Assembly: GCA_029883145.1 (NCBI GenBank)
Contig: JAOUJR010000013.1
Coordinates: 1-13,428 of the forward strand
Source of the DNA: Nitrospirota bacterium
Lineage (GTDB): Bacteria; Nitrospirota; Thermodesulfovibrionia; Thermodesulfovibrionales; SM23-35
Direction of reading: 5' to 3'
DNA length: 13,428 nucleotides
The notes beneath the pieces are model-generated. The model saw nothing but the letters and a program-made list of their open reading frames with translations, was not told the origin of the DNA and did not search any database. Both the position numbers and the translations under genes were made by a program. This document shows, piece by piece, positions 1 through 13,022 of the stretch (the first letter of the stretch is position 1; the number at the start of each line of letters is the position of its first letter).

Positions 1-479
1 GATATAAGGATTATAAGACTATCTTCCGGAGGTTCTTCAAGTGTTTTAAGAAAGGCATTTGCCGCATAGGGATTCATCGTATCCGCTTCATCTATTATAA
101 CGACCTTTTTCCTGCCTTCGAATGGTTTAAAAGAAAGTGCATCATCAATTGCCCTTATCTCTTCTATCCTTATCTGTCCACTTTTAGAAGAGATGAGAAG
201 AAAATCAGGATGTACACCAGCGTCAATTTTTTTACAGGAAACACATTCATTACAAGCGTCTATTTGAGTTAAAAGTTTATTATTATTTAACTCTATGCCC
301 TGTGCTCTATGCCCTGTGCTCTGACAGTTCAGTGCCTTTGCAAGATTAATGGCAGTAAACTTCTTTCCTATACCCGGTTCTCCTGCAAAGAGATATGATG
401 AGGGTATTCTCCCTCTCTCTATAGTTCTCAGCAGTATAGTTACTGCCCTGTCCTGTCCTATAACGTCCCTTAGTGACAT
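1..479 (-). CDS. holB: DNA polymerase III subunit delta' (partial, C-terminus off the left edge)
   Basis: Clamp-loader subunit that, with DnaX and delta, loads the beta sliding clamp onto primed DNA. The first 159 residues are present. An AAA+ fold is visible: a P-loop GEPGIGKK at residues 33-40, a zinc module with Cys52, Cys76, Cys79 and Cys82, and a Walker B VVIIDEAD at 126-133 followed by a FLKTLEEPP segment at 143-151. The P-loop lysine is followed by Lys rather than Ser/Thr, which fits delta' better than the ATPase DnaX. In the family the first two zinc cysteines are usually separated by about eight residues. Here 23 separate them, and the extra stretch coincides with a heptad tandem array. 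The ATG at 479 has only a weak upstream GAG. Adjacency to tmk is a common bacterial arrangement. DnaX is the alternative identity, less likely. Confidence 0.88.
   Translation of the reverse strand, partial: MSLRDVIGQDRAVTILLRTIERGRIPSSYLFAGEPGIGKKFTAINLAKALNCQSTGHRAQGIELNNNKLLTQIDACNECVSCKKIDAGVHPDFLLISSKSGQIRIEEIRAIDDALSFKPFEGRKKVVIIDEADTMNPYAANAFLKTLEEPPEDSLIILI
291..325. repeat. Heptad tandem array inside holB (5 units of 7 bp)
   Basis: Five consecutive 7-bp units. CTCTATG and CCCTGTG alternate, so 14 bp are repeated exactly twice and a fifth unit begins CTCT. The array encodes residues 52-63 of HolB, in the loop between the first and second zinc cysteines, and keeps the reading frame open. 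Seen directly; its origin is inferred. Confidence 0.85.
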
Positions 480-573
480 TTTAGCTCAAATAATACGATT
501 AAGATAATGAAGATGTTGTGAGAAAATTTATTTTTGATACCTTAATGTACATTATTCATGAATTTAAATAACA

Positions 574-685
574 ACAGGCTGGGCATAGTATTTGAGCGGT
601 TTTAAATTCTTTCGGAGAAAGAATTTACCTCGGAGTCCCGATCTTATCGGGACGAGAATGAGCGAAAATGCTATGTCCTGCCTGT
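574..685. repeat. Composite inverted-repeat element with two internal hairpins (MITE-like or structured RNA)
   Basis: Outer arms of 26 nt (574-599 and 660-685) are imperfectly complementary: 19 of 26 positions match, including the outer ACAGGC/GCCTGT and an inner CATAG/CTATG. Between them are two perfect hairpins: 603-627 (11-bp stem, loop GGA) and 635-653 (8-bp stem, loop CTT). The whole would fold as a three-stem junction in DNA or RNA. It fills the space between tmk, whose stop is 4 nt beyond the right arm, and holB. No target-site duplication and no transposase are visible, and neither hairpin is followed by a T-run on either strand, so it is not an ordinary terminator. Whether it is repeated elsewhere cannot be seen from one window. 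Confidence 0.75.
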
Positions 686-688
686 ATG

Positions 689-1330
689 TCATATTTTTAA
701 AAATAGGTCGGAAACTATACTCACTATTTTACCGTGTATTTCCTCTATACTTTTCGAGGCATCTATTAATTTTATCCTTTCCGGTTCTTTTGCTGCAATC
801 TCAAGGTACCCATCCCTTACCTTTTTATGAAACGATATATCCTCGAGTTCCAATCTGTCTGCCTTATTCACCCCTTTGTTTCTCTTTAAACCAACCTCCA
901 CATCAAGGTCAAGGAGCATAGTGATATCAGGTTTTAAGCCTGCGGTGACAATCCTGTCGATGGAATCTATGAGATTTAACTCTATACCCCTTCCATAGCC
1001 TTGATATGCAACGGTTGAATCGTTAAACCTGTCCGTGATCACTATGTCACCTTTTTTTATGGACGGAAAAATGACCTCTTTTATAAGTTGTACACGCGAC
1101 GCATTGTAAAGCATAAGTTCTGTGACTGGTGTCATTCCCTTATGTTCTACTGAGAGGAGGAGTTCACGTATCTTCAGCCCAATTGTGGTGCCGCCAGGCT
1201 CTTCTGTGAGTACAACTTCATATCCTTTTTTCCTTAGAAATTCGTCAAGGAGCTTTGCCTGGATTGTCTTGCCTGAACCTTCGATTCCTTCAAAGGATAT
1301 GAAGATTCCTTTCTTTACCATATCACCCAC
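689..1330 (-). CDS. tmk: Thymidylate kinase
   Basis: Phosphorylates dTMP to dTDP with ATP, the last dedicated step of dTTP synthesis in the cytoplasm. At 213 residues it has the usual family length. Visible motifs are the P-loop FEGIEGSGKT (residues 13-22), EEPGGT (43-48), the DR(F/Y) motif ITDRFNDS followed by AYQGYGRG (about 97-116), and a basic LID stretch near KRNKGVNKADRLE. The listed start is a GTG that overlaps the stop codon of the upstream MetE-like gene by one base (TAGTG) and has AAGGAG about 11 nt upstream. An ATG three codons in (1321) gives the canonical MVKKGIF start but has no clear Shine-Dalgarno. The gene sits in a minus-strand set with the MetE-like gene upstream and holB downstream. 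The composite inverted repeat begins 4 nt after the stop and may affect expression of holB. Confidence 0.95.
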   Translation of the reverse strand: MGDMVKKGIFISFEGIEGSGKTIQAKLLDEFLRKKGYEVVLTEEPGGTTIGLKIRELLLSVEHKGMTPVTELMLYNASRVQLIKEVIFPSIKKGDIVITDRFNDSTVAYQGYGRGIELNLIDSIDRIVTAGLKPDITMLLDLDVEVGLKRNKGVNKADRLELEDISFHKKVRDGYLEIAAKEPERIKLIDASKSIEEIHGKIVSIVSDLFLKI

Positions 1331-2364
1331 TATGAAATTGTCTCCTTAAGTTGTTTGAGCAGAGTGAACACTTTCACTGCATCCTCAACATTCATCGAGC
1401 CAGTTCCGCATGAAGGGGTAAGAAGTATTTGGGAACGTAAAAGGTCTGCAGGCAGAGATTTTGAGAGAAGCTCTAAACTGCTCTCAAGGCGTTTTCTGAT
1501 TGTCTCAATATGTTCATCTCGTATTGACTCGCTTGTGGGCACAATCCCCCATGCAAGGCATCCACCATCCCGAAGGAATTGAGTGAACTCTTCTGGATAC
1601 AAAGAGATTGTGTCGACATATTCATACGCATCAAAGCTGATAATTTTCGTTTTACTTTTTATTACCAATGGCCAGTCAGCGTTGCTGCAACAGTGAATCC
1701 CTGGAATGCCGCCAGCTACTTTAATGGCTTCTGATAGTTCATTTAAAAGCCTCAAGGCTTCATCGGGGTTCACACCGAGATAACTTGTGCTTCCAAGAGC
1801 AGAGAGAATAGGCTCATCAATAAAGATGATAATATTCTCAGCATACGGTTTCAGGATTTCAATCTGCCATCTTGCTTTTGCATTAAGAACTAAGAGGGAA
1901 ATCTCCCGCAGCTCTTCATCATAATAAGCCACTTTTCCTTCAACATCCTTAAGTCCAAGTGTAAAAGTAAGCGGGCCGGTCACCTGACCTTTCAGATAGG
2001 GGAATCGCCTGTTCTTTATGAAATTTACAAGCGTATGGAGACCCTTTGCATACTTCTCTGAGATGGCGATCTGAGTGTCATCTGAATACGTTTCAGAGAA
2101 TTGTATCAGTGCATCGCTTCCATTCCTCTCGATCCATATCGTCTCTTTCTGCTCATCAGTTTTTATAAATGGTACGCCTTCAGAGAACTGAGGGATCATC
2201 AATTCTTGGAATGATAGTTTAGGAAGTTGAGGCCAGAAAGGGATGTCGAATGTCTCGAGCACGAGCCTGCATGCCTCTTCCGGATCTGTATGCGGAAGAC
2301 TTCCAATGCCTGTTGTTGCAAATGGTGTAATCATCTTAACATGATACTCTATCAGTGAGTTCAT
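1330..2364 (-). CDS. Short cobalamin-independent methionine synthase-like protein (core MetE)
   Basis: Matches the catalytic (C-terminal) barrel of MetE only, at 344 residues; classical MetE is about 750 because of an additional N-terminal barrel that binds folate. Visible signatures are TGIGSLPH near the N-terminus (residues 18-25), a zinc-site HCC in GIHCCSNADW (about residues 223-232), and the distal zinc cysteine in LTPSCGTGSM (about 315-324). Core-MetE proteins in anaerobes are thought to take methyl groups from a corrinoid protein instead of methyl-tetrahydrofolate. That role here is inference, as no corrinoid partner is in the window. The start is uncertain: neither the ATG at 2364 nor the ATG at 2334, which begins MITPFATTG and fits the family better, has a convincing ribosome binding site. 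It is translationally coupled to tmk by a one-base overlap. A uroporphyrinogen-decarboxylase-like relative is the alternative. Confidence 0.8.
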   Translation of the reverse strand: MNSLIEYHVKMITPFATTGIGSLPHTDPEEACRLVLETFDIPFWPQLPKLSFQELMIPQFSEGVPFIKTDEQKETIWIERNGSDALIQFSETYSDDTQIAISEKYAKGLHTLVNFIKNRRFPYLKGQVTGPLTFTLGLKDVEGKVAYYDEELREISLLVLNAKARWQIEILKPYAENIIIFIDEPILSALGSTSYLGVNPDEALRLLNELSEAIKVAGGIPGIHCCSNADWPLVIKSKTKIISFDAYEYVDTISLYPEEFTQFLRDGGCLAWGIVPTSESIRDEHIETIRKRLESSLELLSKSLPADLLRSQILLTPSCGTGSMNVEDAVKVFTLLKQLKETIS

Positions 2365-2520
2365 TAGTCAATAGATAAGGCTAAATATATGGAGTGAATA
2401 AAAGGGGAAATAGAAATTATTATCTCTTATTGTAAGATTCAGACATTACATTTGAAAATTCTTCATAAAATCATAAATTTATAATTAAAAATATCTTATC
2501 CATACATAAATAAATCAAAT

Positions 2521-2548
2521 TTGACAAGCTATGAAAAATCACTATACT
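2521..2548 (+). promoter_or_regulatory. Sigma70-type promoter upstream of the RHS tip
   Basis: A perfect -35 TTGACA (2521-2526) and a near-consensus -10 TATACT (2543-2548) are separated by 16 nt. The predicted start near 2555 lies about 45 nt before the RHS start codon. The surrounding 2400-2560 is very AT-rich. Confidence 0.7.
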
Positions 2549-2601
2549 CGAAACTAACGTCATAATATTACCACCCATTTGGGAGAAGGATTGAGAAAAG
2601 T

Positions 2602-3312
2602 GTGAACGGGACGATAACCAAGTATGTCTATGACAATGAGGATATCATTGCTGAATATGATGGCAACAACCAGCTTATCGCCAGTTACACTCATGGCCCT
2701 GGGATTGATGAGCCAATATCAATGACGAATGGACAGACGTATTACTATCATGCTGATGCACTGGGTTCTATTATTGCTATCACTAATTCAACAGGAAATG
2801 TGGTACAAAGATATGAGTATGATTCCTTCGGGAATATTGTTTCAGTATTAGACCCTAACTTCAAACAGCCATATACATATACAGCCAGAGAATATGATGA
2901 AGAAACAGGACTCTATTATTACAGAGCGAGGTATTACGATGCAGAGGTGGGGAGGTTTATCAGTGAAGATCCGATAAGGTTTGATGGAGGAATTAACTTT
3001 TTTGCGTATGTCGGAAATAATCCTGTTAATCAGACTGACCCCGAAGGTCTTTCTGTTTTTCCTCCAGAGTGCTATAACAATCCTAATTGTTTTCTCGAAC
3101 TTCCAAAGAAAGGCGATAAGTGTTATAAGTGTGATTGGATAGCTATTTTACAGTGTATTAGCAAGAAACCTGCTACACCACCAAATGCGATGGCGTGTGC
3201 CAGATGTATTCTTTCAGGAGGTAAAGATAAAAATGCATGTTCTCAATGCGTTGGTTCATTAGCTGGAAATCTACTCGACTGCATAGATAGAACTGCCACA
3301 AAGGTAAAATAA
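2602..3312 (+). CDS. Orphan RHS C-terminal tip: RHS core plus ten-cysteine variable tail
   Basis: Residues 1 to about 150 are the conserved end of an RHS/YD-repeat protein: YD-type repeats (TKYVYDNEDI, YEYDSFGN), the hyper-conserved ETGLYYYRARYYD and GRFISEDP segments, and NQTDPEGL, which marks the core/tip boundary. The remaining 86 or so residues are a cysteine-rich tail with ten Cys (PEC, PNC, DKC, YKC, LQC, MAC, ARC, NAC, SQC, LDC) that I do not recognise. Full RHS proteins are typically over 1000 residues, so the shell is missing. In-frame similarity continues upstream of the GTG as HPFGRRIEKS back to about 2569 and then meets TAA at 2563, placing the truncation junction there. An AGAAGGA motif 11 nt before the GTG and a strong promoter suggest it may still be expressed. 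It could be a displaced toxin tip or a decaying remnant. No signal peptide is present. Confidence 0.8.
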   Translation: MNGTITKYVYDNEDIIAEYDGNNQLIASYTHGPGIDEPISMTNGQTYYYHADALGSIIAITNSTGNVVQRYEYDSFGNIVSVLDPNFKQPYTYTAREYDEETGLYYYRARYYDAEVGRFISEDPIRFDGGINFFAYVGNNPVNQTDPEGLSVFPPECYNNPNCFLELPKKGDKCYKCDWIAILQCISKKPATPPNAMACARCILSGGKDKNACSQCVGSLAGNLLDCIDRTATKVK

Positions 3313-3352
3313 ATGATTGTGGGCAGTGCGAATAATTTTATTCAGTCACAGG

Positions 3353-3979
3353 ATGAACTTATTATTTAAAAATATAAAATTGTTCTTCACACATCCGAAG
3401 AGTCTCTTTTCTGCACTAAGAGAAACTCCAGGGTTTAAACGTGCATTAATTTTGTTGTTTATATTAGCCTCTTCATTTGTCTTACCTAATATCAAGAGTC
3501 TTTTATCAAAATATCCAGATGCCATACTTATGACAGATGCTTTAATAATGACCTCGATTTTGGTGACTGGTCTCCTTTTCGTGGGATTACTACTGGGTAG
3601 CTCTTATGTATTAATATTGTGTAGACTATTGGGGCGTAAACCAAAGTTCACTGCAATTCTTTCCGCACTAATATATTGTGGAATTCCTTCGATGTTCGGT
3701 ATGATATTTTATACTTTGCTACCCGTTAGAACTTACCTCTTAAGTATTTTCCCTATTGAAAAGCTCCATCCCTTCTTGATCTCTGTATTTCAAGAGGTGG
3801 ACTTATTTTGGTTATGGACAACTGCTATGGAAATCATTGCAGTAGCCATCATTTCAGGGCTAAGTTATCGTAAAAGTTTTACTATTATAATTTCTTATTG
3901 GATTGTCAGATCGATAATAATTTATCTTCTGGGGATAAATATGGGCGAAATTTACAGAGGAGTATTGCCTATATTTTAA
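3353..3979 (+). CDS. Yip1-like multi-pass membrane protein; possible immunity protein for the RHS tip
   Basis: About 208 residues with roughly five hydrophobic segments. They include stretches around ALILLFILASSFVLP, ALIMTSILVTGLLFVGLLLG, ILSALIYCGIPSMFG, an ending near IIAVAIISGLSY, and SYWIVRSIIIYLLG. The N-terminal pattern, amphipathic LLFKNIKLFFTHPKSLFSAL followed by ETPGFKRAL, is typical of bacterial Yip1-family proteins, whose function is generally unknown. The start is uncertain: I chose the ATG at 3353 because it fits the family N-terminus. A TTG at 3317 and a GTG at 3326 give longer forms, and none has a clear ribosome binding site. It begins within about 40 nt of the RHS stop on the same strand, the usual place for the immunity gene of a polymorphic toxin. 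That role is inference only. Confidence 0.65.
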   Translation: MNLLFKNIKLFFTHPKSLFSALRETPGFKRALILLFILASSFVLPNIKSLLSKYPDAILMTDALIMTSILVTGLLFVGLLLGSSYVLILCRLLGRKPKFTAILSALIYCGIPSMFGMIFYTLLPVRTYLLSIFPIEKLHPFLISVFQEVDLFWLWTTAMEIIAVAIISGLSYRKSFTIIISYWIVRSIIIYLLGINMGEIYRGVLPIF

Positions 3980-4042
3980 AAGAGGAGAAGTGAAAATAGG
4001 GACAGTTGTACTCGCTCACTAATTCGGTAACTTTTTTTTATC

Positions 4043-4906
4043 TCACTTAATCAACTCTTCCAGTTCCTCAAGACTGAAAGAGTTTTCCTGGGTGATTTTC
4101 ATCCACCGGCGGCAGCGGTTCGCATTCAGAGGAATCCCTACCGGCGGAATACCAAGCTTGATGCAGAGCCTCATGCCACGGACAAGCTCGGGGATACAGG
4201 CAATACCAAGGGCACCGATGCTCGGGTGTTCGGCCTTGAGTTTCCTGAAAAGCCTTTCCTGATCCATCTCAATAGATATATATGGATTGATGCCATACTC
4301 CTTCAGGAGGAGACTCCCTAGATTGATGAAGCACTCTTGTGTGCAGCCCATACAGACAGCATCAATATCACCGGCAACAGAATGGCATTCGGGCCTGAAG
4401 TCGCGAAGGCAGTGCGGAATGAGTGCGAATTTGTATTCGCTCTTTTTGAAAGCTTCTTTGTAGATTCTGTTTATAAGCTCGATTTCGAGCATATAAAGAT
4501 GGTACTGTTTTTCTTTTGTCCTGAGTGTTTCATCCAATCTCTGCGTAAGCGACAGACTCCTGAGGTGTTCCTTAACTCCTTTAGTATATGCTGAAAGAGC
4601 CTCATGTGTATTCTTCCTTATCATTGAAATGAGTGCGGGATTAATGAGGTCTGAGCTTTTCTTGAATGAATGCGGACTGCTTCCGGCATTTTGAATATGG
4701 AAGAGGAGGGTCTGTTTGTCAGGGCAGACAAGGAGCAGTTTGTCCAGAATATCTCTTATGGAACTGTAATACCTTTCAGTCGAGACATCATCACCAAAAA
4801 GAGTATATGTTTTGCCTGTCACTGCTCTGTATTTTTCTTTTTGTACGATCACAACTTTAGTATAACCCTTTTGAGCGCAAGAGAGTGAAGAAGCCGGATC
4901 TATCAT
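4043..4906 (-). CDS. DUF116 family cysteine-rich protein
   Basis: The 287-residue product carries the DUF116 signature in its second half: ALIPHCLRDFRPEC, then CMGCTQEC about 17 residues on, then GALGIACIPELVRGM and GIPPVGIPL. The spacing of PHC, C, CxGC and C suggests an Fe-S or zinc site. The biochemical function of the family is not established as far as I know; it is frequent in anaerobic bacteria and methanogens. The first half (TYTLFGDDVSTERYYSSIRDIL) fits the N-terminal part of bacterial members. The annotated ATG at 4906 has no ribosome binding site and adds about 28 residues before the familiar TGKTYTLFGDD segment. A GTG at 4822 is therefore a plausible alternative start. It is divergent from the secreted hydrolase gene with only 37 nt between start codons. 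Confidence 0.8.
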   Translation of the reverse strand: MIDPASSLSCAQKGYTKVVIVQKEKYRAVTGKTYTLFGDDVSTERYYSSIRDILDKLLLVCPDKQTLLFHIQNAGSSPHSFKKSSDLINPALISMIRKNTHEALSAYTKGVKEHLRSLSLTQRLDETLRTKEKQYHLYMLEIELINRIYKEAFKKSEYKFALIPHCLRDFRPECHSVAGDIDAVCMGCTQECFINLGSLLLKEYGINPYISIEMDQERLFRKLKAEHPSIGALGIACIPELVRGMRLCIKLGIPPVGIPLNANRCRRWMKITQENSFSLEELEELIK

Positions 4907-4909
4907 GAA

Positions 4910-4938
4910 TGAACATTCTGATAATTGTAGTGTATACT
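4910..4938 (+). promoter_or_regulatory. Promoter predicted to give a leaderless mRNA for the DUF1460-like gene
   Basis: TGAACA (4910-4915), 17 nt, TATACT (4933-4938). The ATG at 4944 begins six positions after the last base of the -10, where transcription itself should start, and there is no Shine-Dalgarno. A leaderless transcript is inferred. Confidence 0.5.
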
Positions 4939-4943
4939 AAATT

Positions 4944-5714
4944 ATGATAAGGGTATTGTTTATAATCGTCTTTTTGTCTCTTGCTGTACCTGCCTATTCC
5001 TTTCTCTCAGATGAAGAGATTGCATCATTTCAAAAAGAGCTTCAAGGGAAGACTGTTAGTGAACGTATTGCCTTCTGGGCAGAGAAGTTTGTCGGTACTC
5101 CTTATGACCCTGATCCACTCGGAGAGTATGTAACGAAGAAAGTGATTGTTGCTGATGAGCGTGTTGACTGCATGTATCTGAGTTTCAGGACACTTGAGTT
5201 GAGCCTTGGGAAGACTCCATCAGAGGCATTAATGATTGCACTGGATAAAAGGTTTATTGATAAAGGAAGGATTGTGGATGGCAAGGTTGTTAATTATGAA
5301 AACAGGTTTGAATATGGCGAGGACATGCTTGACAGCGGTAAGTGGGGCAGAGAGATCACAGAAGATTATGGACCAGTCACTGAGATAAAAGGTTCACGGG
5401 GGAGGGAGAAGGTAAAGATTATTTCCAAAGAAGCTCTGCAAGTCATACTTGTTCTTGATGTAAATTCTTCGTGTAAATGTAAGGGTTCATTAATTCACAA
5501 TGGCGATATGCTTTTTTTTATCAAATCCCCTGATAAAAGAGTTGCAGATGAAATAGTCGGGCATATTGGTATTGTAAAAAAGGAGGATGGTGTTTTATAC
5601 CTCATACACGCCAGCGGGAGTAAAAACCGAGACGGTGTGGTTAAAAAAGTTTTGCTTTATGAATATATTAAATCAATGCCTTTTATAGGTGTGCGGCTAA
5701 GCAGGTTTGATTAA
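4944..5714 (+). CDS. Secreted DUF1460 / NlpC-P60-like amidase
   Basis: A 256-residue protein with an N-terminal signal peptide: basic start MIR, hydrophobic VLFIIVFLSLAVPA, and a likely cleavage after AYS near residue 19. The mature part has the DUF1460 layout related to NlpC/P60 cysteine peptidases: FVGTPYDPDPLG (49-60), a putative nucleophile Cys76 in RVDCMYL, then GDMLFFI (187-193), the putative catalytic histidine in GHIGIV (His207), and LIHASG (His222). Characterised relatives cleave N-acetylmuramoyl-L-alanine or peptide bonds in peptidoglycan, so a cell-wall role in the periplasm is likely, but the substrate is not shown here. A CKC pair at 177-179 is unusual for a secreted enzyme. No ribosome binding site precedes the ATG; see the leaderless promoter. 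The stop lies 10 nt from the stop of the opposing bS22-like gene. Confidence 0.75.
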   Translation: MIRVLFIIVFLSLAVPAYSFLSDEEIASFQKELQGKTVSERIAFWAEKFVGTPYDPDPLGEYVTKKVIVADERVDCMYLSFRTLELSLGKTPSEALMIALDKRFIDKGRIVDGKVVNYENRFEYGEDMLDSGKWGREITEDYGPVTEIKGSRGREKVKIISKEALQVILVLDVNSSCKCKGSLIHNGDMLFFIKSPDKRVADEIVGHIGIVKKEDGVLYLIHASGSKNRDGVVKKVLLYEYIKSMPFIGVRLSRFD

Positions 5715-5724
5715 GGCATTGACC

Positions 5725-5823
5725 TTACTTGTTCTTCCTCCTCTGGAATTTTGTCTTCTTCCTCAACTTGTCGTGCTTGTGCTTGCTCATCTTCTTTTTA
5801 CGCCATTTGACAACATTACCCAC
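5725..5823 (-). CDS. Small ribosomal protein bS22/mS38-like (AURKAIP1/COX24 domain), 32 residues
   Basis: A 32-residue, extremely basic product starting MGNVVKWRKKKMSKHKH and ending TKFQRRKNK. It matches the short AURKAIP1/COX24-type proteins, whose mycobacterial member bS22 (from memory, a similar [20 protein letters not shown] pattern) sits in the small ribosomal subunit and whose mitochondrial counterpart is mS38. Roughly half the residues are Lys or Arg. The shared features are the K-x-R-K-K-x-M-S-K-x-K-H core and a closing QRR. The GTG start is firmly set by AGGAGG seven nt upstream, the best Shine-Dalgarno in the window. It is read in the same direction as the activase, 74 nt after that gene's stop, and converges on the hydrolase gene. 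It is too short for routine gene callers, so it is easily missed. Confidence 0.85.
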   Translation of the reverse strand: MGNVVKWRKKKMSKHKHDKLRKKTKFQRRKNK

Positions 5824-5826
5824 TAA

Positions 5827-5836
5827 ATCACCTCCT
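5827..5836 (-). promoter_or_regulatory. Strong Shine-Dalgarno of the bS22-like gene
   Basis: AGGAGGTGAT on the minus strand, with the AGGAGG core seven nt before the GTG at 5823. It is a near-perfect anti-16S match and is the main evidence that the small gene is translated from a GTG. Confidence 0.85.
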
Positions 5837-5839
5837 CTA

Positions 5840-5867
5840 AAAGTTAAAATCAAAAAGTAAAAAGGTC
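5840..5867. repeat. AT-rich heptad array downstream of the activase gene
   Basis: Four degenerate 7-bp units on the plus strand (AAAGTTA, AAATCAA and so on), between the activase stop and the Shine-Dalgarno of the bS22-like gene. It is noncoding here, and it belongs by period to the coding arrays elsewhere in the window. Confidence 0.5.
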
Positions 5868-5886
5868 TTTCGATTCCTTAAGTTTA

Positions 5887-5912
5887 AATTTTTCATTTTA
5901 ATTTTTCATTTG
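5887..5912. repeat. 13-bp AT-rich tandem duplication carrying the activase stop codon
   Basis: AATTTTTCATTTT (5887-5899) is followed directly by AATTTTTCATTTG (5900-5912), 12 of 13 identical. On the minus strand it supplies the last codons Met-Lys-Asn and the TAA stop (5898-5900) of the activase, then repeats them out of the gene. Confidence 0.65.
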
Positions 5913-8900
5913 TTTTGCCTGTTCCATAAATGCCTCAAGCTGTATGGTTATTGCTGGAGACTCTGTTCCATCGTAAGGAATACTGATACATGGAGTATCA
6001 TAGTCTCTCCCTAGTCCCCTCAGGAGGGCTGTCACAATTGTCCCTGGCATGCACCCAAAGGGCATTGCATTTATAATACCTGAGGCCCCTTTTTCTATAA
6101 GGTCAACACCTTTCCCGATGCTTAAGATCGTTTCACCTTCAAATGAGCTATGTATATAAGGCGATGCCTTCTCAATGATCTCTTTTGACTCTGGCTCTTT
6201 CAATGTCTTCAAAAAACCTTTAAAATATTTTGCAAACCTGTGTTCTATTTTCTTCTGGAAGAATTTCTTCAAAAGGAAGCTAATAATAGCAGACTTGTCC
6301 TTTTTTAACAATGCCTTTTTTAGCCCCATGAGATTTACATAATAAATCCATTCTTCCACAGGCGCAAGCCACACCTCGCCACCCAATGCTTCAACTTTTC
6401 TTATGAGGTCTTCATTGGAGAATTTGTGGCACCTTACGAATATCTCGCCTATTATTCCAATAAGAGGCTTTCTATCTTTATGCGCAGGAAGATTCTCAAA
6501 CTTTTTCCTTATATCCTTTAAAATACCTTCTAAATTATCTGCGCTATTTCTCAGGGAGAGGTATAACTTTTTAAGATAACGCTCATATAACTCATCTGCA
6601 GAGCCTCTGTCAATTTCATATGGTCTTGTCTCATGGAGACATTTGGAGAGAAGTTCACAGGCAATGATGCCCCTCCATGCGTGCATTATAAAATCCTTGC
6701 CAATAATTCCAAGGTCACTGTAAAAGGTGGTATCCTGATTTGGTGAGAATATCGGGACGTCTTCATAACCCAGTTCATTGAGGATAAGCCTGTGGAAGAC
6801 ATTATACTGACCGAACCTGCACGGACCTGTGCCAGAGGGCATAAAAAAAGCACTCTTCTCAGGAATAAAATCAGGCTGCATGACTTTTTTAACCATATCA
6901 CCCGTAGTGACTGTACATGGATAACATTCCTTACCGGAGACGTATTTTCTTCCGAGGTCTGTGGTTTCTTTATCAGACTCTGGGAGGACTTCGGCATTTA
7001 TACCGCAATGCTCAAATGCAGCAGAAATGGCAATTACATGGTCTGACATGTGAGGAAGATAGATAGTGCGGTTTGAGTGACGAGTGACAAGTGATGAGTG
7101 ATAAGATGGCATCCTTTTGTCTTTACTGGTAGCTTGTAACTGGTAACTTGTAATCTTGTTTTTAATGCTGTCAATGAATGCCTCACACCTGGTGATTACA
7201 CCTGCAGCAGCGCTATGCTCGTCTATCTCGATATAGAGATATGGTTTGCCTTTCATCTCCTCTTCAAAATATTTAAGAATAAAAGAATCCGGGCCGCACG
7301 AGAAGTTACCGATATACAGTGCATAGAGATGAGGATGGTTTCGTATTAATTTTGCAGCTTGGAGTATTTTCTGTCCAGATTTCCAGTACATGTTCGGCCA
7401 GTCCTGATATATGCTTGTTTCCTCTATTGGCAGAAAATCCATCGGGATAGAATTGACCCCGAGATCGGCAAGTTTTTTAGGAATTTCGAGATTTGCACCG
7501 CTGTCAAAGGCATTATAAGGCCTCCCCACAATCACAATAGTCCTCTCTTTTATAGAAGAGAGAACCTCTATGCCTTGAGCTTTGATCTGTGTGAAAAATT
7601 CTTCCTGAGCCTTTTCTGCTCTTTCAAGTGCATTTGATAGAGCATTTGATGTTATTCTGAATGGCTTAAGTGTCTTCTTAAGCTCTTTTTCAAGAAATTT
7701 CTTTCCACGCCGTAAATTGATAATAGGGGTTAATAACTTTATTCCCTCAAATGCAATTTGTGCTACATAGGGAATTGTCTGTGTATAGGGGCATGCGTAT
7801 CCTCTGTCCAGGTGTTCTTCAGGTGTATTAAGGTTAATAAAACTCGGGATGAAAAGAGCGTCAATATTTTTATCAAGTAAATATCTGATATGCCCATGTG
7901 CAACCTTTACAGGGAAACATGCCTCTGAAAGGACAGTCTCAAGGCCGAGGTTAATGATCTGTCTGTTTGTTTTTGGAGAAACCTCTACATCAAATCCAAG
8001 TTCCCACAGGAGTGTTGTCCAGAAAGGAAGATAATCCTGGTAAAAGAAGAGGTAAGGGATGCCAATCTTGATGTGACGTGGAGATTCAGAGACAGGGAGA
8101 CTTGGAGGTAATATATTTTTGTCTTCAGTTGTTTTACCATTCACCATTTCACCGTATCTCTGTTTCATTCTGAGCATATGTTCTTTCCAGAGCATCTCAT
8201 CTCTGAATGAAAAGAGATCATGGGTCGTGAGTTGCGAGTCACGGGTAGATTTTTGATTTTTCCTTACATCATATTTTTCGCATCTGCTTCCATAAAAGAG
8301 AAAATCTTCTTCTTCTGCAATCTTTACCTTGTTTATTTCGCATACATTAGGACAGCCCTTGCATTCAAAAGAGGATATCTCATATGACCTTTTTGAAAGC
8401 TCAAAACCTTTAAAAGTGGTGAATCGGTGACTTGGTGAATCGGTGACTTGGTGAGTAATTTGCGTATCTGCTTCAATGAGTCTTCGAGTCTCCAAGTCTC
8501 TATTTTTCATATAGTCCATTGCAATCAATGCCATGCCTATTGCACCTGTGACGTCGTGGTGAGGGGGAACAGTTATTTTTTTACTGAGGTGTTTCTCGAA
8601 TGCAGCGATAACCGACTTATTAAAGGCTACTCCACCCTGGAAAAATATAGTATCGCCTATTGCTTTCCCTGCAACAACCCTGTTTATATAGTTCTGAACG
8701 ATAGAATATGCAAGGCCTGCAAGGAGGTCATTTTTATCAACACCCTTCTGAAGGTTTGCAATAAGGGAATTCTCCATAAAAACAGTGCATCTCTCACCAA
8801 GTCTGCAGGGACTTTCAGAAGAAAGTGCAGCTTTTTCAAATTCTTTCTTTATCGAAATATTCAATTTTTCTGCCTGCTCTTCAAGAAAAGAGCCTGTACC

Positions 8901-10235
8901 TGCTGCACATGCCTTATTCATCTCGAAATCAATGACAAAACCATCTTTAAGCGATATATATTTTGAGTCCTGTCCTCCTATCTCGAATATCGTATCAACA
9001 TTCTTGTCTAGAAAGGCTGCTGCAGTTGCCTGGGCGGTAATCTCGTTTTTTACAATATCTGCACCGACGTAATCAGCAATCATATATCTCCCTGAGCCGG
9101 TTGTGCCAACACCCATAATCTCTATTCTGTCTCCGATCTCCTCGCCTATTTCTGTAAGCCCCTGTCGGACTGCCTCTATAGGCCTGCCTGCTGTCATAAG
9201 GTATCTTTTTGAGAGGAGTCTTCCCTGTTCATCTGTCACCGCGAGGTTAGTGCTGATAGAGCCAATATCAATACCTAAATATGCCTTAACTCGTTCTGAG
9301 TTCAAAGTTCTAAGTTCTCTGTTCCAACTGATTGATGTTTGATATTTTTTGCCTGTTTCCTGATCGAGGTCGTTTAAAGGAGGGTAGCCTGCCTCGATAG
9401 GTCTGGGCGATGATAAAAATTCTTCGAGCCTTAAAAGGTCAAAGTGCTGTATGGTGCCTTCATGCATACTTTTTAATGCAGCACCAATGGCTCCCATAAG
9501 CAGATGATCTTCAGGAACAAATAGCTCATCAAGCTCAAAAATTTCCTTAAAAGCTCTGACCATTCCTTTATTTGCTGCAACCCCTCCCTGGAATGATACC
9601 GGCGCTACAATTTTTCTGCCTTTTACTATAGTGCCTCTGAAGTTTCTTGCGACAGCAAAGCAGAGACCTGCTACGATATCTTCAAAAGGTGTTGCAATCT
9701 GCTGAAGATGTATCATGTCAGATTTTGCAAAGACGCTGCATCTTCCCGCAATTCTTGAGGGCCTCTGTGATATAAGTGCAAGTTCACTGAACTCTTCTAT
9801 AGTAAGCCTCAACCTTTCTGCCTGCTGATCAAGAAAGGAGCCTGTTCCTGCAGCGCATACAGAGTTCATAGAAAAATCTTTTACAGAACAACTATCCTTG
9901 CCCAGGAGTATGAGCTTTGAATCCTCTCCCCCCATTTCAATTACAGTCTTGATATGTGGAAAGAGTAAATGTGTAGAATACGCCTGGGAAACAATCTCAT
10001 TGACTGGCCCTATGCCAAGAATAGATGCGATTAATTTTCCGGAGGAACCAGTGATTGATAGTGAAGAGTGGCGAGTGATGAGTGATGAGTCTGCCCTGAG
10101 GAGTTTAAGGGCAACACGAACAGGGAGCCCCTTATGTCTTTCGTAGCAACTGAAAAGTCTAATCCCCTTTTCATCAAAGACAACAAGTTTTACACTTACA
10201 GAGCCGGCATCAAGACCAATGAAATTCATCTCCAC
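5898..10235 (-). CDS. Giant acyl-CoA dehydratase activase: two BcrAD/BadFG ATPase domains, DUF2229, HgdB-like C-terminus
   Basis: A 1445-residue protein of the family whose archerase subunits use ATP to push single electrons into 2-hydroxyacyl-CoA dehydratases or benzoyl-CoA reductases. In order: ATPase domain 1 (GLDAGSVSVK at 7-16, GGEDSK, CAAGTGSF with Cys127, GRCSVF with Cys166); ATPase domain 2 (GIDIGSISTN from about 321, CAAGTGSF with Cys443, ERCTVF with Cys483); a four-cysteine motif (Cys625, 628, 632, 652); DUF2229 (KIGIPYLFFYQDYLPF onward, about 720-1020); and HgdB-like parts with ECYPC (1104-1107), GPCRFG (1139) and FGCMPGT (1395). The paired cysteines after each P-loop are the usual ligands of the bridging 4Fe-4S cluster. 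The second half resembles the dehydratase side, so activator and acceptor may be fused; the substrate is unknown. Seven heptad/octad arrays fall mainly in linkers. The GTG at 10235 gives MEMNFIG; an ATG at 10229 is equally plausible. Confidence 0.9.
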   Translation of the reverse strand: MEMNFIGLDAGSVSVKLVVFDEKGIRLFSCYERHKGLPVRVALKLLRADSSLITRHSSLSITGSSGKLIASILGIGPVNEIVSQAYSTHLLFPHIKTVIEMGGEDSKLILLGKDSCSVKDFSMNSVCAAGTGSFLDQQAERLRLTIEEFSELALISQRPSRIAGRCSVFAKSDMIHLQQIATPFEDIVAGLCFAVARNFRGTIVKGRKIVAPVSFQGGVAANKGMVRAFKEIFELDELFVPEDHLLMGAIGAALKSMHEGTIQHFDLLRLEEFLSSPRPIEAGYPPLNDLDQETGKKYQTSISWNRELRTLNSERVKAYLGIDIGSISTNLAVTDEQGRLLSKRYLMTAGRPIEAVRQGLTEIGEEIGDRIEIMGVGTTGSGRYMIADYVGADIVKNEITAQATAAAFLDKNVDTIFEIGGQDSKYISLKDGFVIDFEMNKACAAGTGSFLEEQAEKLNISIKKEFEKAALSSESPCRLGERCTVFMENSLIANLQKGVDKNDLLAGLAYSIVQNYINRVVAGKAIGDTIFFQGGVAFNKSVIAAFEKHLSKKITVPPHHDVTGAIGMALIAMDYMKNRDLETRRLIEADTQITHQVTDSPSHRFTTFKGFELSKRSYEISSFECKGCPNVCEINKVKIAEEEDFLFYGSRCEKYDVRKNQKSTRDSQLTTHDLFSFRDEMLWKEHMLRMKQRYGEMVNGKTTEDKNILPPSLPVSESPRHIKIGIPYLFFYQDYLPFWTTLLWELGFDVEVSPKTNRQIINLGLETVLSEACFPVKVAHGHIRYLLDKNIDALFIPSFINLNTPEEHLDRGYACPYTQTIPYVAQIAFEGIKLLTPIINLRRGKKFLEKELKKTLKPFRITSNALSNALERAEKAQEEFFTQIKAQGIEVLSSIKERTIVIVGRPYNAFDSGANLEIPKKLADLGVNSIPMDFLPIEETSIYQDWPNMYWKSGQKILQAAKLIRNHPHLYALYIGNFSCGPDSFILKYFEEEMKGKPYLYIEIDEHSAAAGVITRCEAFIDSIKNKITSYQLQATSKDKRMPSYHSSLVTRHSNRTIYLPHMSDHVIAISAAFEHCGINAEVLPESDKETTDLGRKYVSGKECYPCTVTTGDMVKKVMQPDFIPEKSAFFMPSGTGPCRFGQYNVFHRLILNELGYEDVPIFSPNQDTTFYSDLGIIGKDFIMHAWRGIIACELLSKCLHETRPYEIDRGSADELYERYLKKLYLSLRNSADNLEGILKDIRKKFENLPAHKDRKPLIGIIGEIFVRCHKFSNEDLIRKVEALGGEVWLAPVEEWIYYVNLMGLKKALLKKDKSAIISFLLKKFFQKKIEHRFAKYFKGFLKTLKEPESKEIIEKASPYIHSSFEGETILSIGKGVDLIEKGASGIINAMPFGCMPGTIVTALLRGLGRDYDTPCISIPYDGTESPAITIQLEAFMEQAKQMKN
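7071..7105. repeat. Heptad array, TGATGAG family (activase linker)
   Basis: Five 7-bp units of form TGAYRAG on the plus strand, the first degenerate. On the sense (minus) strand it reads SSLVTRHS at about residues 1044-1056, between DUF2229 and the HgdB-like part. Confidence 0.85.
7125..7152. repeat. Heptad array, ACTGGTA/ACTTGTA family (activase linker)
   Basis: Four 7-bp units alternating ACTGGTA and RCTTGTA, giving a 14-bp period. It encodes part of SYQLQATSKD on the minus strand. It lies 19 bp from the TGATGAG-family array in the same linker, so two unrelated heptad families are side by side. Confidence 0.8.
8081..8112. repeat. Degenerate octad array (activase linker)
   Basis: Units GAGATTCA, GAGACAGG, GAGACTTG and a diverged fourth give an 8-bp period. 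It encodes the PVSESPRH stretch just before DUF2229. A further weak 7-bp pattern (TTTACCA, TTCACCA) lies at 8132-8153. Confidence 0.6.
8221..8248. repeat. Heptad array, TGAGTTG-like (activase linker)
   Basis: Four degenerate 7-bp units (TGGGTCG, TGAGTTG, CGAGTCA, CGGGTAG). On the minus strand they encode STRDSQLTTHD, about residues 663-672, after the four-cysteine motif. Confidence 0.7.
8418..8457. repeat. Octad array with an exact 16-bp tandem duplication (activase linker)
   Basis: Units GGTGAATC and GGTGACTT alternate; 8418-8433 and 8434-8449 are identical and a fifth unit GGTGAGTA follows. It encodes THQVTDSPSHRF (about residues 593-607) between ATPase domain 2 and the four-cysteine motif. 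Confidence 0.9.
8479..8502. repeat. Octad array AGTCTYCR (activase linker)
   Basis: Three 8-bp units (AGTCTTCG, AGTCTCCA, AGTCTCTA), 21 bp from the previous octad array. On the minus strand they encode RDLETRRL, about residues 578-586, right after ATPase domain 2. Confidence 0.75.
9293..9327. repeat. Heptad array GTTCNNA (linker between the two ATPase domains)
   Basis: Five 7-bp units, each beginning GTTC (GTTCTGA, GTTCAAA, GTTCTAA, GTTCTCT, GTTCCAA). On the minus strand they encode WNRELRTLNSER, residues about 303-315, exactly between the two ATPase domains. Confidence 0.85.
10055..10089. repeat. Heptad array, TGATGAG family (ATPase domain 1)
   Basis: Five 7-bp units on the plus strand converging on TGATGAG; the last two are identical. 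On the minus strand they read SSLITRHSSL at about residues 50-60, a loop just before the ITGSSGK strand of the first ATPase domain. Confidence 0.85.
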
Positions 10236-10247
10236 CCCAATTTTTAA

Positions 10248-10256
10248 ATTATACCA
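10248..10256 (-). promoter_or_regulatory. Extended -10 promoter of the activase gene
   Basis: TGGTATAAT on the minus strand is a perfect extended -10. No good -35 is visible 16-18 nt upstream. The predicted start near 10241 leaves only a 6-12 nt leader containing GGGGTGGAG. Confidence 0.6.
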
Positions 10257-10308
10257 TAGAAAAAATATCTCCTGTGAAGAAGGAACTTTGAAAGGTACTC
10301 TTAAAGCA

Positions 10309-10337
10309 TTGCTATTTTGAAATAATTTTTTGATAAT
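10309..10337 (+). promoter_or_regulatory. Promoter predicted to give a leaderless mRNA for the ligase-ACP-PlsC gene
   Basis: TTGCTA (10309-10314), 17 nt, GATAAT (10332-10337). The ATG at 10344 begins seven positions after the -10 with no Shine-Dalgarno before it, so transcription should start at or next to the start codon. It is divergent from the activase promoter within about 55 bp. Confidence 0.5.
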
Positions 10338-10343
10338 GTAAGA

Positions 10344-13022
10344 ATGGCGGACAAGACTATCCAGCGACTATTTTTTGCAAAAGCAGAAAAGTGTGGTGAT
10401 AAGGTCGCATTCAATTACTTTGACCAGATATGGAAAACCATCACCTACCATAAGCTTCAAACCGATACAAAAGGCATTGCATCATGTCTTGTACAGAAAG
10501 GATTAAAGAAAGGTGACAGGGTTGCAATCATCTCTGAAAACAGGCCTGAATGGTGCACGACATATTTTGCAATAGCCCTATCAGGAGGGATTGCTGTTCC
10601 ATTAGATGCTCAGCTCAAACCCAAAGAAATAAGAATTTACTTTGCTGACTCTGAGCCGAAGGCGATTTTTTTCAGTTCAAAAACCAAAGAAAATGTAGAA
10701 GAGGCAATTAAAGAACTTTTTGCTTCTCACTCTTCACTCTTCACTGTGAGTTTCGATTCACCTGAGTTTAATGATATATGCATGACACCGGAAATGAATA
10801 ATTATCCTGAAGTTTCAGAGGAAGATGTTGCATCTCTTATCTATACATCGGGTACAACTGGTATACCCAAGGGTGTAGAACTTACTCATAAGAACTTTTG
10901 CTCTGATGTAGAGGCCATTATAAAAATCAGGCTTGTCACACATAATGATAATATACTTTCAGTATTACCATTGCACCATACCTATCCTTTTATGTGCACA
11001 TTTCTTTTACCAATTTTCCTTGGAGCAACCATTACCTATCCACCAAGTCTGAAAGGACCTGAAATCATGGCAGCCATGAGAGAACAGGGGGTGAGTATAC
11101 TTGTTGGAGTACCACAATTACTTGAACTGATAAGAAATGGAATCATCAACAGAATTAGGCAATTGCGACACCCACTCTCCGAATTTCTGATTGGTATTTT
11201 GAAACTGAGCGGAGTTCTAAGGAAAAAGACTGGCATAAACCCCGGTAAATTAATTTTTAGCTCAGCACATAAGGCACTTGGTAAGAGATTCAGATTTTTT
11301 GCAAGCGGAGGTGCACGACTTGACCCTGAGGTGGCAAGAGATCTTGAGGCCGTAGGATTTACTGTCCTTGAAGGATACGGTCTGACCGAGACCTCTCCGG
11401 TTGTTACGTTCACACCCATGGAAAAGAGGAAAGCAGGTTCGGTAGGCATGCCCCTTCCGTCTGTAGACATCAAAATACTGAATCCAGAGAGTCATGAGCC
11501 ATTAGGGTTAATGCAAGAGGGTGAGATTGCAATAAGAGGGCCAATGGTAATGAAAGGTTATTATAAAAATCCTAAGGCAACTGAACAGGCGATCAAAGAC
11601 GGATGGTTTTTAAGTGGAGACCTTGGCTATCAGGATAAAGACGACTATATATTCATAACCGGAAGATTAAAAGAAGTGATAGTCCTGAGTTCAGGAAAAA
11701 CTGTGTATCCAGAGGATGTAGAAAAACTGTATATGAAGATTCCTCTTATAAGAGAGATATGTGTAATGGGTATTGAAGAGAAGGGCATTGTTGAATCGCT
11801 CCACGCCGTAATTGTACCGAACCTCGAATATGCACGAGAGGCACAAATCGGAAACCTGCAGGAGTCACTGAAGTGGGAGATTAATAATATATCACTTCAC
11901 CTGCCCCATTATATGAGAATAAAAGGATATACCATTTATTCAGATCCTTTGCCGAGGACTCCACTTGGTAAACTCCGGAGGTTTATGGTCAAAGACCTTA
12001 TAAAAGTTAAAGACAAAGAGCAAAAAGCAGGGGTCCCAGATAAATATTTAATGGAAGATGAGATCGGGAGAGAAATTGTTCAATGTATAACACCTTTGAT
12101 GAAAGAAAAGATTCAAATACAATCAACAGACAATCTCGAGCTTGACCTCGGGTTTGACTCTCTTACCAGGATAGAACTTGTTGTTTCACTTGAAAAGGCG
12201 TTTTCAATTAAATTGCCCGAGACCTTTGCCTCTGAGATACAGACTGTTGAAGAGCTTGTTGCGAAGATAAAGGAATACGGAATACATGAAGTTATTGAAA
12301 TAAAAAAGTTACAGTGGAGAGACATATTAAAGGCAGACCCTGATTTTGCCGAGAGGAAAAAAGTTGGACTCCATCACGGTTTTTTTGATTGGATGATAAT
12401 TATTATTTGTTTAGGTGCAGTGAAGATTCTTTTTAAACTATTTTTCAGGCTGAAGGTGAAGGGTCTTGAAAATTTGCCTGAAAAAGGACCCTATATTATC
12501 ACACCAAATCACACAAGCTACCTTGATGGATTCAATATTGTTGCTGCACTCCCGTCAAAGATATTCAAAGATTTATATTTAGTTGGATTTCAGAAATACT
12601 TTACCGGTACATTCAGGGAAATTTTTGCAAGACTTGCTCATGTTATTCCGGTAGACCCAGAAACATATCTCAATAAAGCTCTTCAGTTAGCTGCCTATGT
12701 GTTGAGAAAGGAAAAATCACTTGTGATATTCCCTGAAGGGGGGAGGTCTTATGACGGAGAAATGATGGAATTCAAAAGAGGAGTCGGTATTCTTTCCATA
12801 GAACTGAATATACCTGTTATTCCAGCATCTATCAAAGGCTCTTTTGAGGCATTACCAAGAGGTGCGAAGTGGCCAAAATTTACCGAGATAGAGATTACCC
12901 TTGGAGAGCCTCTTTATCCTTCTGAGATGGACATGTCCAGAAAACCGAAAGATATAGATGAATATCAGTTCTTCGTGAATGAGTTGAGAGAAAAGGTGAG
13001 AGAGTTAAAGTTGATTGCTTAG
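10344..13022 (+). CDS. Trifunctional fusion: acyl-AMP ligase, acyl carrier protein, PlsC-type acyltransferase
   Basis: An 892-residue protein. Residues 1 to about 560 are an ANL-superfamily acyl ligase: YTSGTTGIPKG (167-177), GYGLTETSP (344-352), GDLGYQDKDD (from 425), TGRLKEVI, and the catalytic lysine K543 in TPLGKLRR. About 570-650 is an acyl carrier protein with the phosphopantetheine serine S606 in LGFDSLTRIEL. A hydrophobic segment (WMIIIICLGAVKILFKLFF, about 676-695) precedes the acyltransferase, which has HxxxxD at H723-D728 (NHTSYLD), FPEGGRS at 796-802 and VIPASIKGS. The likely job is to activate a free fatty acid with ATP, load it on the fused carrier and esterify it to a lysophospholipid at the membrane, like Aas but with the domains in the opposite order and a built-in ACP. 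Acceptor and chain length are unknown. A TCTTCAC heptad array lies at residues 127-134. Confidence 0.9.
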   Translation: MADKTIQRLFFAKAEKCGDKVAFNYFDQIWKTITYHKLQTDTKGIASCLVQKGLKKGDRVAIISENRPEWCTTYFAIALSGGIAVPLDAQLKPKEIRIYFADSEPKAIFFSSKTKENVEEAIKELFASHSSLFTVSFDSPEFNDICMTPEMNNYPEVSEEDVASLIYTSGTTGIPKGVELTHKNFCSDVEAIIKIRLVTHNDNILSVLPLHHTYPFMCTFLLPIFLGATITYPPSLKGPEIMAAMREQGVSILVGVPQLLELIRNGIINRIRQLRHPLSEFLIGILKLSGVLRKKTGINPGKLIFSSAHKALGKRFRFFASGGARLDPEVARDLEAVGFTVLEGYGLTETSPVVTFTPMEKRKAGSVGMPLPSVDIKILNPESHEPLGLMQEGEIAIRGPMVMKGYYKNPKATEQAIKDGWFLSGDLGYQDKDDYIFITGRLKEVIVLSSGKTVYPEDVEKLYMKIPLIREICVMGIEEKGIVESLHAVIVPNLEYAREAQIGNLQESLKWEINNISLHLPHYMRIKGYTIYSDPLPRTPLGKLRRFMVKDLIKVKDKEQKAGVPDKYLMEDEIGREIVQCITPLMKEKIQIQSTDNLELDLGFDSLTRIELVVSLEKAFSIKLPETFASEIQTVEELVAKIKEYGIHEVIEIKKLQWRDILKADPDFAERKKVGLHHGFFDWMIIIICLGAVKILFKLFFRLKVKGLENLPEKGPYIITPNHTSYLDGFNIVAALPSKIFKDLYLVGFQKYFTGTFREIFARLAHVIPVDPETYLNKALQLAAYVLRKEKSLVIFPEGGRSYDGEMMEFKRGVGILSIELNIPVIPASIKGSFEALPRGAKWPKFTEIEITLGEPLYPSEMDMSRKPKDIDEYQFFVNELREKVRELKLIA
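10724..10744. repeat. Heptad array, CTCATCA family (acyl ligase gene)
   Basis: Three 7-bp units (TTCTCAC, then TCTTCAC twice) on the sense strand, encoding SHSSLFT at residues 128-134. The reverse complement GTGAAGA belongs to the same family as the TGATGAG arrays in the divergent activase gene. Confidence 0.7.

Follow-up and report, generated by a model that had tools for sequence, protein, structure and literature searches.

Heptad and octad tandem arrays of fixed period and variable unit, many of them convergent inverted pairs, in a Nitrospirota genome, its relatives and other phyla

Array inventory and host genes

The stretch of DNA analysed here, which we call the window (13,428 nucleotides; positions 1 to 13,428 of contig JAOUJR010000013.1, assembly GCA_029883145.1), comes from a bacterium of the Nitrospirota and contains a series of short tandem arrays with a period of 7 or 8 bp. 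A sequence-only reading of the window had listed eleven of them as a dispersed family, and all eleven were read again in this study. The genome is a 2.23-Mb assembly of 444 contigs and is 86.6% complete. Eight of the eleven arrays lie in the gene of an activase; of the other three, a HolB-like gene and an AMP-ligase/acyltransferase gene hold one each, and one (5840-5867) is intergenic. The host genes are as follows.

3..479 (-), HolB protein (DNA polymerase III delta'-type), N-terminal portion; houses 291-325
5898..10235 (-), 1445-aa activase with BadF/BadG/BcrA/BcrD ATPase domains (two stretches) and DUF2229; houses 8 of 11 arrays
10344..13022 (+), AMP-binding, phosphopantetheine and acyltransferase protein; houses 10724-10745

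The arrays and their partner arms are listed below; S1 to S5 are five linkers of the activase, and TRF stands for Tandem Repeats Finder, run with a minimum score of 30.

~271-290, weak AGT-type partner of 291-325, noticed by eye
291..325 (-), AB-AB heptad array with a 14-bp period, in a length-variable linker of the HolB-like gene
5839..5864 (+) (5840-5867 in the sequence-only reading), A-rich AGT-type heptad array, intergenic, reported by TRF; 5' member of a loosely convergent pair
5878..5911 (+), T-rich partner of 5839-5864; TRF period 7 or 13
7071..7105 (+) (TRF from 7075), GAGTGAY heptad array in linker S5; paired convergently with 7125-7153
7125..7153 (+), heptad partner arm, reverse complement MAGTTAC; TRF and lag scan
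8081..8112 (+), weak octad-like array in linker S4, lag-8 identity 0.54
8132..8153 (+), weak ACC-type heptad array opposite 8081-8112; TRF
8221..8248 (+), weak single heptad array, lag-7 identity 0.62; counterparts in G001 and G002 homologous but diverged
8417..8457 (+), octad array GGTGAATC/GGTGACTT, 16-bp AB-AB, in linker S3; arm of a convergent octad pair
8478..8502 (+), octad partner arm of GAGTCTCC type; TRF
9293..9327 (+), heptad array RAGTTCN in linker S2; the arrays of three congeners all differ at this linker
10052..10090 (+), heptad array GAGTGAT in linker S1, present also in G001 and G002; without a strong partner
10724..10745 (+), heptad array TCACTCT in the AMP-ligase/acyltransferase gene

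The inventory of the sequence-only reading proved largely right. TRF reported nine of the eleven arrays (at 291, 5839, 7075, 7125, 8417, 8478, 9293, 10052 and 10727), and a stricter lag-segment scan (score of at least 11) kept seven (291, 7075, 7125, 8417, 9293, 10060 and 10727); the array at 5839-5864, with a lag-7 identity of 0.62, fell under the threshold of that scan. The lag-7 or lag-8 identity inside the arrays ranged from 0.54 (8081) to 0.86 (10724). The arrays at 8081-8112 and 8221-8248 were not called by TRF at this minimum score and are weak, and the units at 291-325 and 8418-8457 are better described as AB-AB repeats of 14 and 16 bp, respectively.

The clearest head-to-head pairs in the window are 8417-8454/8478-8500 and 7075-7105/7125-7153. 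A hairpin was predicted for 8417-8457 with 8478-8502 on both strands (z of −3.0 on + and −3.2 on −), and for 7071-7153 on the + strand (z of −3.3). The intergenic pair 5839-5864/5878-5911 gave z of −2.4 on + and −1.2 on −. No hairpin was predicted for 8081-8153 (z of 0.0 and 1.3), and the pair of 291-325 with ~271-290 folded no better than shuffled sequence (z of −0.3 and −1.0).

Frequency, period and location of the arrays

The periodicity exceeds what base composition, codon usage or protein sequence would give. Eight genes of the window, used for codon controls, hold five lag-7 arrays and one lag-8 array. After shuffling of the codon order, 0 arrays remained at lag 7 and 0.01 at lag 8; when synonymous codons were shuffled with the protein unchanged, the means were 0.03 and 0.01. 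In order-3 Markov controls of the window, the mean count was 0 for lag 7 and 0.2 for lag 8. Codon bias and amino-acid repetition were therefore ruled out by the synonymous shuffles, and the lag signal anticipated by the sequence-only reading stands well above its codon-shuffled controls.

Untargeted samples were drawn from the window's own genome (G000, 180 kb) and from two relatives, G030 (500 kb) and G032 (340 kb, its activase locus included). They contained 9, 47 and 34 period-7 arrays, respectively, against 1, 2 and 0 in one Markov replicate each, and period 7 was the commonest period in all three; period-8 arrays numbered 2, 15 and 6. The unusual richness of the window is due to a single gene: the own-genome sample corresponds to 50 period-7 arrays per Mb. 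Further samples gave 4 period-7 arrays in 160 kb of G016, 1 in 160 kb of G154 (Markov replicate 0), 0 in 200 kb of G031 and 0 in 40 kb of G023.

Most arrays of the window are inside genes (10 of 11), as the sequence-only reading said, and all nine period-7 arrays of the own-genome sample fell within crude open reading frames (ORFs) covering 0.89 of the DNA. This does not extend to the two best-sampled relatives: only 28 of 47 arrays in G030 and 20 of 34 in G032 are internal to ORFs, which cover 0.92 of the DNA, and arrays are thus under-represented inside ORFs there.

The arrays are also spread widely. The pattern GAGTGAYGAGTGAYGAGTGA was found in at least 116 stretches of the species collection; among the 80 matches listed were Chloroflexi, Verrucomicrobia, Acidobacteria, Bacteroidales, Deltaproteobacteria, Cyanobacteria and Nitrospirae, and within the window's phylum it was matched in 11 of 198 genomes.

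Turnover in protein linkers

Alignment of the activase with 29 orthologues placed its arrays in length-variable linkers and showed that the array residues are not kept, which rules out conserved protein sequence as their source. Neither of the two outcomes that the sequence-only reading named as refuting its proposal, a lag signal no stronger than in codon-shuffled sequence or residues retained in orthologues, was therefore observed. Across the five linkers of 30 species, 61 of 74 arrays have period 7, 10 have period 8, 2 have period 9 and 1 has period 6, compared with about 0.6 arrays per period in shuffled linkers. Linker S3 (8418-8502) holds nine of the ten octad arrays; its octads have very different units in the window's species, G002, G011, G029, G032 and G023, and heptads stand in their place in G001, G005, G030 and G031. 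The units found at these linkers in relatives are different ones, period and pairing being mostly retained, and many orthologues have short linkers without an array. Among three congeners (the window's species, G001 and G002), all agree at S1 and each has a different array at S2. At S3 the window's species agrees with G002, whereas at S4 and S5 only G001 and G002 agree; at S4 these two have clear heptad pairs.

The array at 10724 is present in 1 of 14 orthologues, the other 13 having no period-7 or period-8 array there; TTACTC at this site in G001 and G012 is a possible seed. The HolB linker of relatives contains heptad pairs, other palindromic inserts or a few residues only. Arrays thus differ or are missing at the same sites in relatives, and the idea of the sequence-only reading that a shared process fixes the period and leaves the unit free is supported.

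Two further observations concern these linkers. In the HolB linker (L253-L282, between AKALNC and DACDECPSC), at least three kinds of in-frame insert occur among relatives: heptad pairs, PPLPPFSKGG-type palindromes and SLxLPPRGGG-type palindromes. The motif CTGAGCCTGTCGAAGRG lies within heptad arrays of two genes of G029, at the 10055 linker (L016) and at the HolB linker (L267).

Convergent pairing and complementary arms

The sequence-only reading overlooked that many arrays are arms of head-to-head convergent pairs which share one period and often have complementary units; many others are single. With swapped flanks as the control for matching of an array to its own flank, an inverted match of score 14 or more was found for 18 of 61 arrays in G030 and 17 of 38 in G032, compared with direct matches for 5 of 61 and 0 of 38 and swapped-flank inverted matches for 3% and 11%.

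Matching of the arms was further tested in the 36 linkers with at least two arrays, using a laxer array score (6.5), the first and last array only and a permutation over all sites jointly (36 rows, the doubtful L011 and L257 included). First and last array had the same period in 33 of them. Own-arm complementarity was 7.86, a value reached by 0 of 400 permutations (permuted pairing 5.12, sd 0.35), and it also exceeded the direct match of same-site arms from other genera (5.98). Permutations reached the observed value in 0 of 500 cases at the cross-phylum loci and in 7 of 500 in G030. Arms more alike than expected, a feature of template-switch quasipalindromes, were found in the linkers, the cross-phylum loci and G030, and not in G032. 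Convergent pairs folding better than shuffles (z below −2) made up 3 of 3 in G000, 8 of 14 in G030, 10 of 12 in G032 and 31 of 42 at the cross-phylum loci, where pairs longer than 200 bases were omitted (42 of 44 folded).

Polarity of the pairs

Pairs with equal period, a gap of at most 60 and a score of at least 9 per array were classified by the G-C skew of each arm, GC denoting a G-skewed arm on the 5' side and a C-skewed arm on the 3' side, and CG the reverse. GC pairs numbered 3 in G000 with the window, 14 in G030 and 12 in G032, and CG pairs 0 in each (29:0); GG or CC pairs numbered 1 (7075/7125), 4 and 1. The 7075/7125 pair is GG by this measure and convergent only through its AGT/ACT cores. 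The linkers gave 24 GC, 0 CG and 12 others (0C 3, C0 1, CC 6, GG 2); the two sets overlap, because the activase genes of G030 and G032 lie within the samples of these genomes. At the cross-phylum loci, for which the counts drew on the at least 116 stretches, 97 pairs comprised 44 GC, 1 CG and 12 with a zero-skew arm; the polarity was 45 to 5 if zero skew is scored as C and 44 to 1 if zero-skew arms are set aside. These 44 GC pairs represent 35 loci chosen by one GAGTGAY pattern, some of them in Nitrospirota, and classification by purine content gave a weaker polarity (RY 41, YR 12 of 97, score of at least 9). Pairs with equal or zero skew, which stand outside the polarity count, numbered 6 in the three genomes, 12 in the linkers and 52 across phyla. 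The samples of G031, G016 and G023 held no GC pair at period 7 or 8.

Inverted symmetry alone does not demand such a polarity, since it would allow both orders of the arms. The G-skewed strand might fold on itself, and this was considered and rejected: DNA energies favoured the G-skewed strand in 59 arms and the other strand in 11, with 76 ties, a weak result because G-T wobbles favour the G-skewed strand by construction.

Coding constraint

A 7-bp unit runs through all three reading frames, so that longer arrays cannot have a stop trinucleotide in each of their units. C-type arms on the coding strand (45 arrays) contain 0.9 stop trinucleotides per 100 nt, compared with 11.0 on the opposite strand. 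G-type arms on the coding strand (26 arrays) contain 8.3 per 100 nt, which must therefore stay out of frame, and 4.3 on the opposite strand. Coding constraint may be the reason for the poorer arm matching in genes than elsewhere.

Other features of the window

An intergenic stretch at 585-690 contains nested inverted repeats, with GGGCATAGTATTTGAGCG facing CGAAAATGCTATGTCC and CCCGATCTTATCGGG inside, and resembles by eye another palindromic element. At 2602-3312 lies a short RHS/YD-repeat protein with a cysteine-rich tail at its C-terminus.

Discussion

We suggest, tentatively and at slightly short of even confidence, that the 7- and 8-bp arrays are born locally, many as convergent inverted pairs, through slippage and template switching, and are tolerated in linkers. 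An array would start by replication slippage on a short seed in the host sequence. A template switch on the nascent strand could then make or homogenise a complementary arm, located to the 3' side on the G-skewed strand. Through repeated rounds of both, the sequence of the unit would turn over, and the period and the pairing would be retained. The inserts, probably near-neutral, would persist between genes, and also in protein linkers of variable length if they keep the frame and bring in no in-frame stop. Slippage from local seeds with template switching would account for the fixed period, the variable unit, the arm matching and the turnover, and mirror-image pairs that tend to face one way hint at a DNA copying error as their source. 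The two processes do not alone give the polarity. Template switching is known to homogenise the arms of inverted repeats in yeast coding DNA (PMC8604942).

Several observations weigh against this interpretation. In the window's own genome none of ten arrays had an inverted own-flank match at a score of 14 or more, and at 10 or more inverted and direct matches were equal (3 each). Across phyla, own-flank matches in the 80 listed stretches were 52 of 230 inverted and 40 of 230 direct (swapped 7%). Arm matching in G032 was not above permutation (55 of 500 reach the observed value), and some paired arms have unlike units (L009, L025 at 9293). The polarity is blurred by 16 GG and 24 CC pairs among the 97 cross-phylum pairs, by the 12 zero-skew pairs there, of which 7 lean against it, 3 with it and 2 neither way, and by one G016 pair (C0) that leans contrary to it. 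Period 6 is as common in G030 as period 8 (14 and 15 arrays). The 100-kb samples of G033 and G040 had no period-7 array (Markov 0), which generic slippage leaves unexplained. No array gain or arm conversion was caught between strains. A composite heptad element that recurs in G030 fits dispersal instead.

Such dispersal is the strongest competing account. REPIN/REP elements have a conserved REP core in many copies, with a TnpA-REP Y1 transposase in the same genome, and heptad-armed hairpins could likewise be moved as units, as REPIN- or MITE-like palindromic elements, perhaps by a Y1 transposase of the IS200/TnpA-REP type. The Y1_Tnp family (PF01797) has 3 matches in the window's own genome and occurs in 33 of 38 array-rich genomes vs 68 of 111 others (p 0.004 by Fisher's test, kinship not corrected for), an excess that keeps this explanation alive, and in relatives the same HolB linker also takes other palindromic inserts. 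Octad and heptad arms form a composite element that is found at several intergenic places of G030 (L059 730-866 and 16624-16734; L208 1508-1673). Y1_Tnp was, however, not found in five array-rich genomes (G151, G218, G221, G266 and G275, some of them incomplete), and in most listed pairs the unit and the spacer vary by site, in place of a conserved core. A dispersed element recognisable by its spacer was searched for with one spacer pattern, which matched one place in 101 genomes and so revealed no general core. We regard mobility as unlikely, though it deserves more weight than the explanations that follow. Genomes were counted as array-rich from 40 matches of AGTN4AGTN4AGTN4AGT upwards, and this proxy overlooks other units (G030 has 24, although its sample is rich); a reversed-pattern control was also raised in rich genomes and left no clean null, and the enzyme-family counts are uncorrected for kinship or completeness.

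That the hairpins are selected, acting as mRNA or DNA at domain linkers and gene ends in pausing, termination or stability, seems rather improbable to us. Most convergent pairs do fold better than shuffles, and several unrelated palindromic inserts occur in one linker; yet many orthologues have short, array-free linkers, on the activase sense strand only 8417-8502 is clearly stable (z of −3.2, compared with −0.9 for 7071-7153 and 1.3 for 8081-8153), and stability does not settle the order of the arms. The polarity would be met by broken 3' ends that are extended with G-skewed heptads, as at telomeres, and then joined in twos: the G-skewed strand runs toward the junction, which we take to be the orientation of head-to-head telomere fusions. 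We give this little credence, since one fixed RNA template would not yield many units per genome. Ku was found in 5 of 38 array-rich genomes vs 31 of 111 others (p 0.08) and reverse transcriptase (RVT_1) in 14 of 38 vs 42 of 111 (p 1), with none in G000, G012, G029 and G032. Also, the S5 spacers of the window, L012 and L015 resemble one another by eye, and an older spacer can therefore be flanked by differing arms. Ordinary conserved protein sequence or chance might be invoked for the two weak arrays among the eleven listed, and is scarcely credible for the rest given the Markov, codon-order and synonymous controls and the lack of conserved residues in orthologues.

Ku, RVT_1 and SbcD were all rejected as needed factors on the counts in array-rich and other genomes (SbcD above cut-off in 1 of 38 vs 12 of 111, p 0.19), and none of the searched enzyme families, Y1_Tnp included, is needed. 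SbcD exceeded its family cut-off in 13 of 149 order-level genomes, 11 of which have at most 4 AGT-heptad matches, the exceptions being G201 (53) and G240 (37); 11 of the 13 belong to two families, so this pattern may reflect kinship only.

A bolder version of the local-birth account is speculative, and we would not expect it to hold: in bacteria of many phyla, a process specific to one strand and working at the 3' end of G-skewed DNA might build head-to-head 7- and 8-bp arrays, oriented like fused telomeres, and go on rewriting the linkers of essential proteins. Period and pairing would then be inherited, and the sequence would not.

The known systems resemble the arrays in part. The sequence-only reading named cyanobacterial STRR sequences as the closest analogue. 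These use a few fixed heptamer units per genome and lie mainly between genes, whereas many units, and in-frame places, were found here. Closer are the GGGAATC heptamers of Xanthomonas, which are dispersed, have 2-26 units of one G-tract consensus, are 89-93% intergenic and stand at different genes, where prominent, in two related species (PMC4692102). They include 70 and 75 cases of two nearby convergent repeat sites, whose stem-loop potential was remarked on (PMC4692102). The authors call these pairs convergent, which we take to mean the same orientation as that of the GC pairs. The 7-bp period and the convergent placement of two close arrays are common to both, in our case for part of the arrays. 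Unlike the GGGANTN consensus, the window has the units GAGTGAY, MAGTTAC, GGTGACTY, RAGTTCN and others. The periods here are 7 and 8 bp, in-frame linkers are occupied and the arms are matched pair by pair; the roughly 90% intergenic location in Xanthomonas contrasts with 10 of 11 arrays in ORFs in the window, 28 of 47 in G030 and 20 of 34 in G032.

The TAACTGA repeats of Beggiatoaceae are likewise 7-bp arrays scattered over distant phyla, but they have a fixed unit placed mostly just upstream of start codons, unlike the units and places found here, and one inverted case among 170 sets (PMC4679880). The long simple sequence repeats of Mrazek et al. 2007 are described in the same paper as 5-11-nt units above chance, with heptads most abundant in most genomes and slippage proposed as their origin. 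The window arrays, as tandem 5-11-nt units above chance, belong to this broad class; the description given there does not mention inverted pairing, polarity or linker turnover. In Bacillus, tandem repeats of constant size and variable sequence have units of 52 or 20-21 nt (PMC8161180), so that the likeness lies in the constant size and not in the unit length. Template-switch quasipalindromes share the homogenised inverted-repeat arms, coding DNA included (PMC8604942), and in the parts of the sources drawn on here no 7/8-bp tandem period or polarity is noted for them (PMC8604942; PMC8794818, PMC7202029). The mitochondria of Nematomorpha carry inverted repeats inside protein genes, with gains and losses and a proposed arm conversion (PMC6649704); unlike the arrays here, these palindromes are long and mostly perfect, and the word 'tandem' is absent from the main text.

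Heptamer arrays, convergent GGGAATC pairs and template-switch homogenisation are thus known already. In the open-access sources consulted, we found no report of in-frame pairs that combine variable units and matched arms with a polarity rule, and the variable-unit, arm-matched, in-frame form looks like a new variant of these known arrays. For annotation, caution is called for, because peptides such as SSLVTRHS or SYQLQATS can be born from repeats and need not be homologous. If local birth of the arrays is correct, the process would supply new in-frame sequence to linkers, for example in HolB, and leave the domains unbroken. If polarity and arm matching hold more widely, the bacterial preference for 7-bp repeats would become a testable mechanism, since the rule names the strand and the end that are active.

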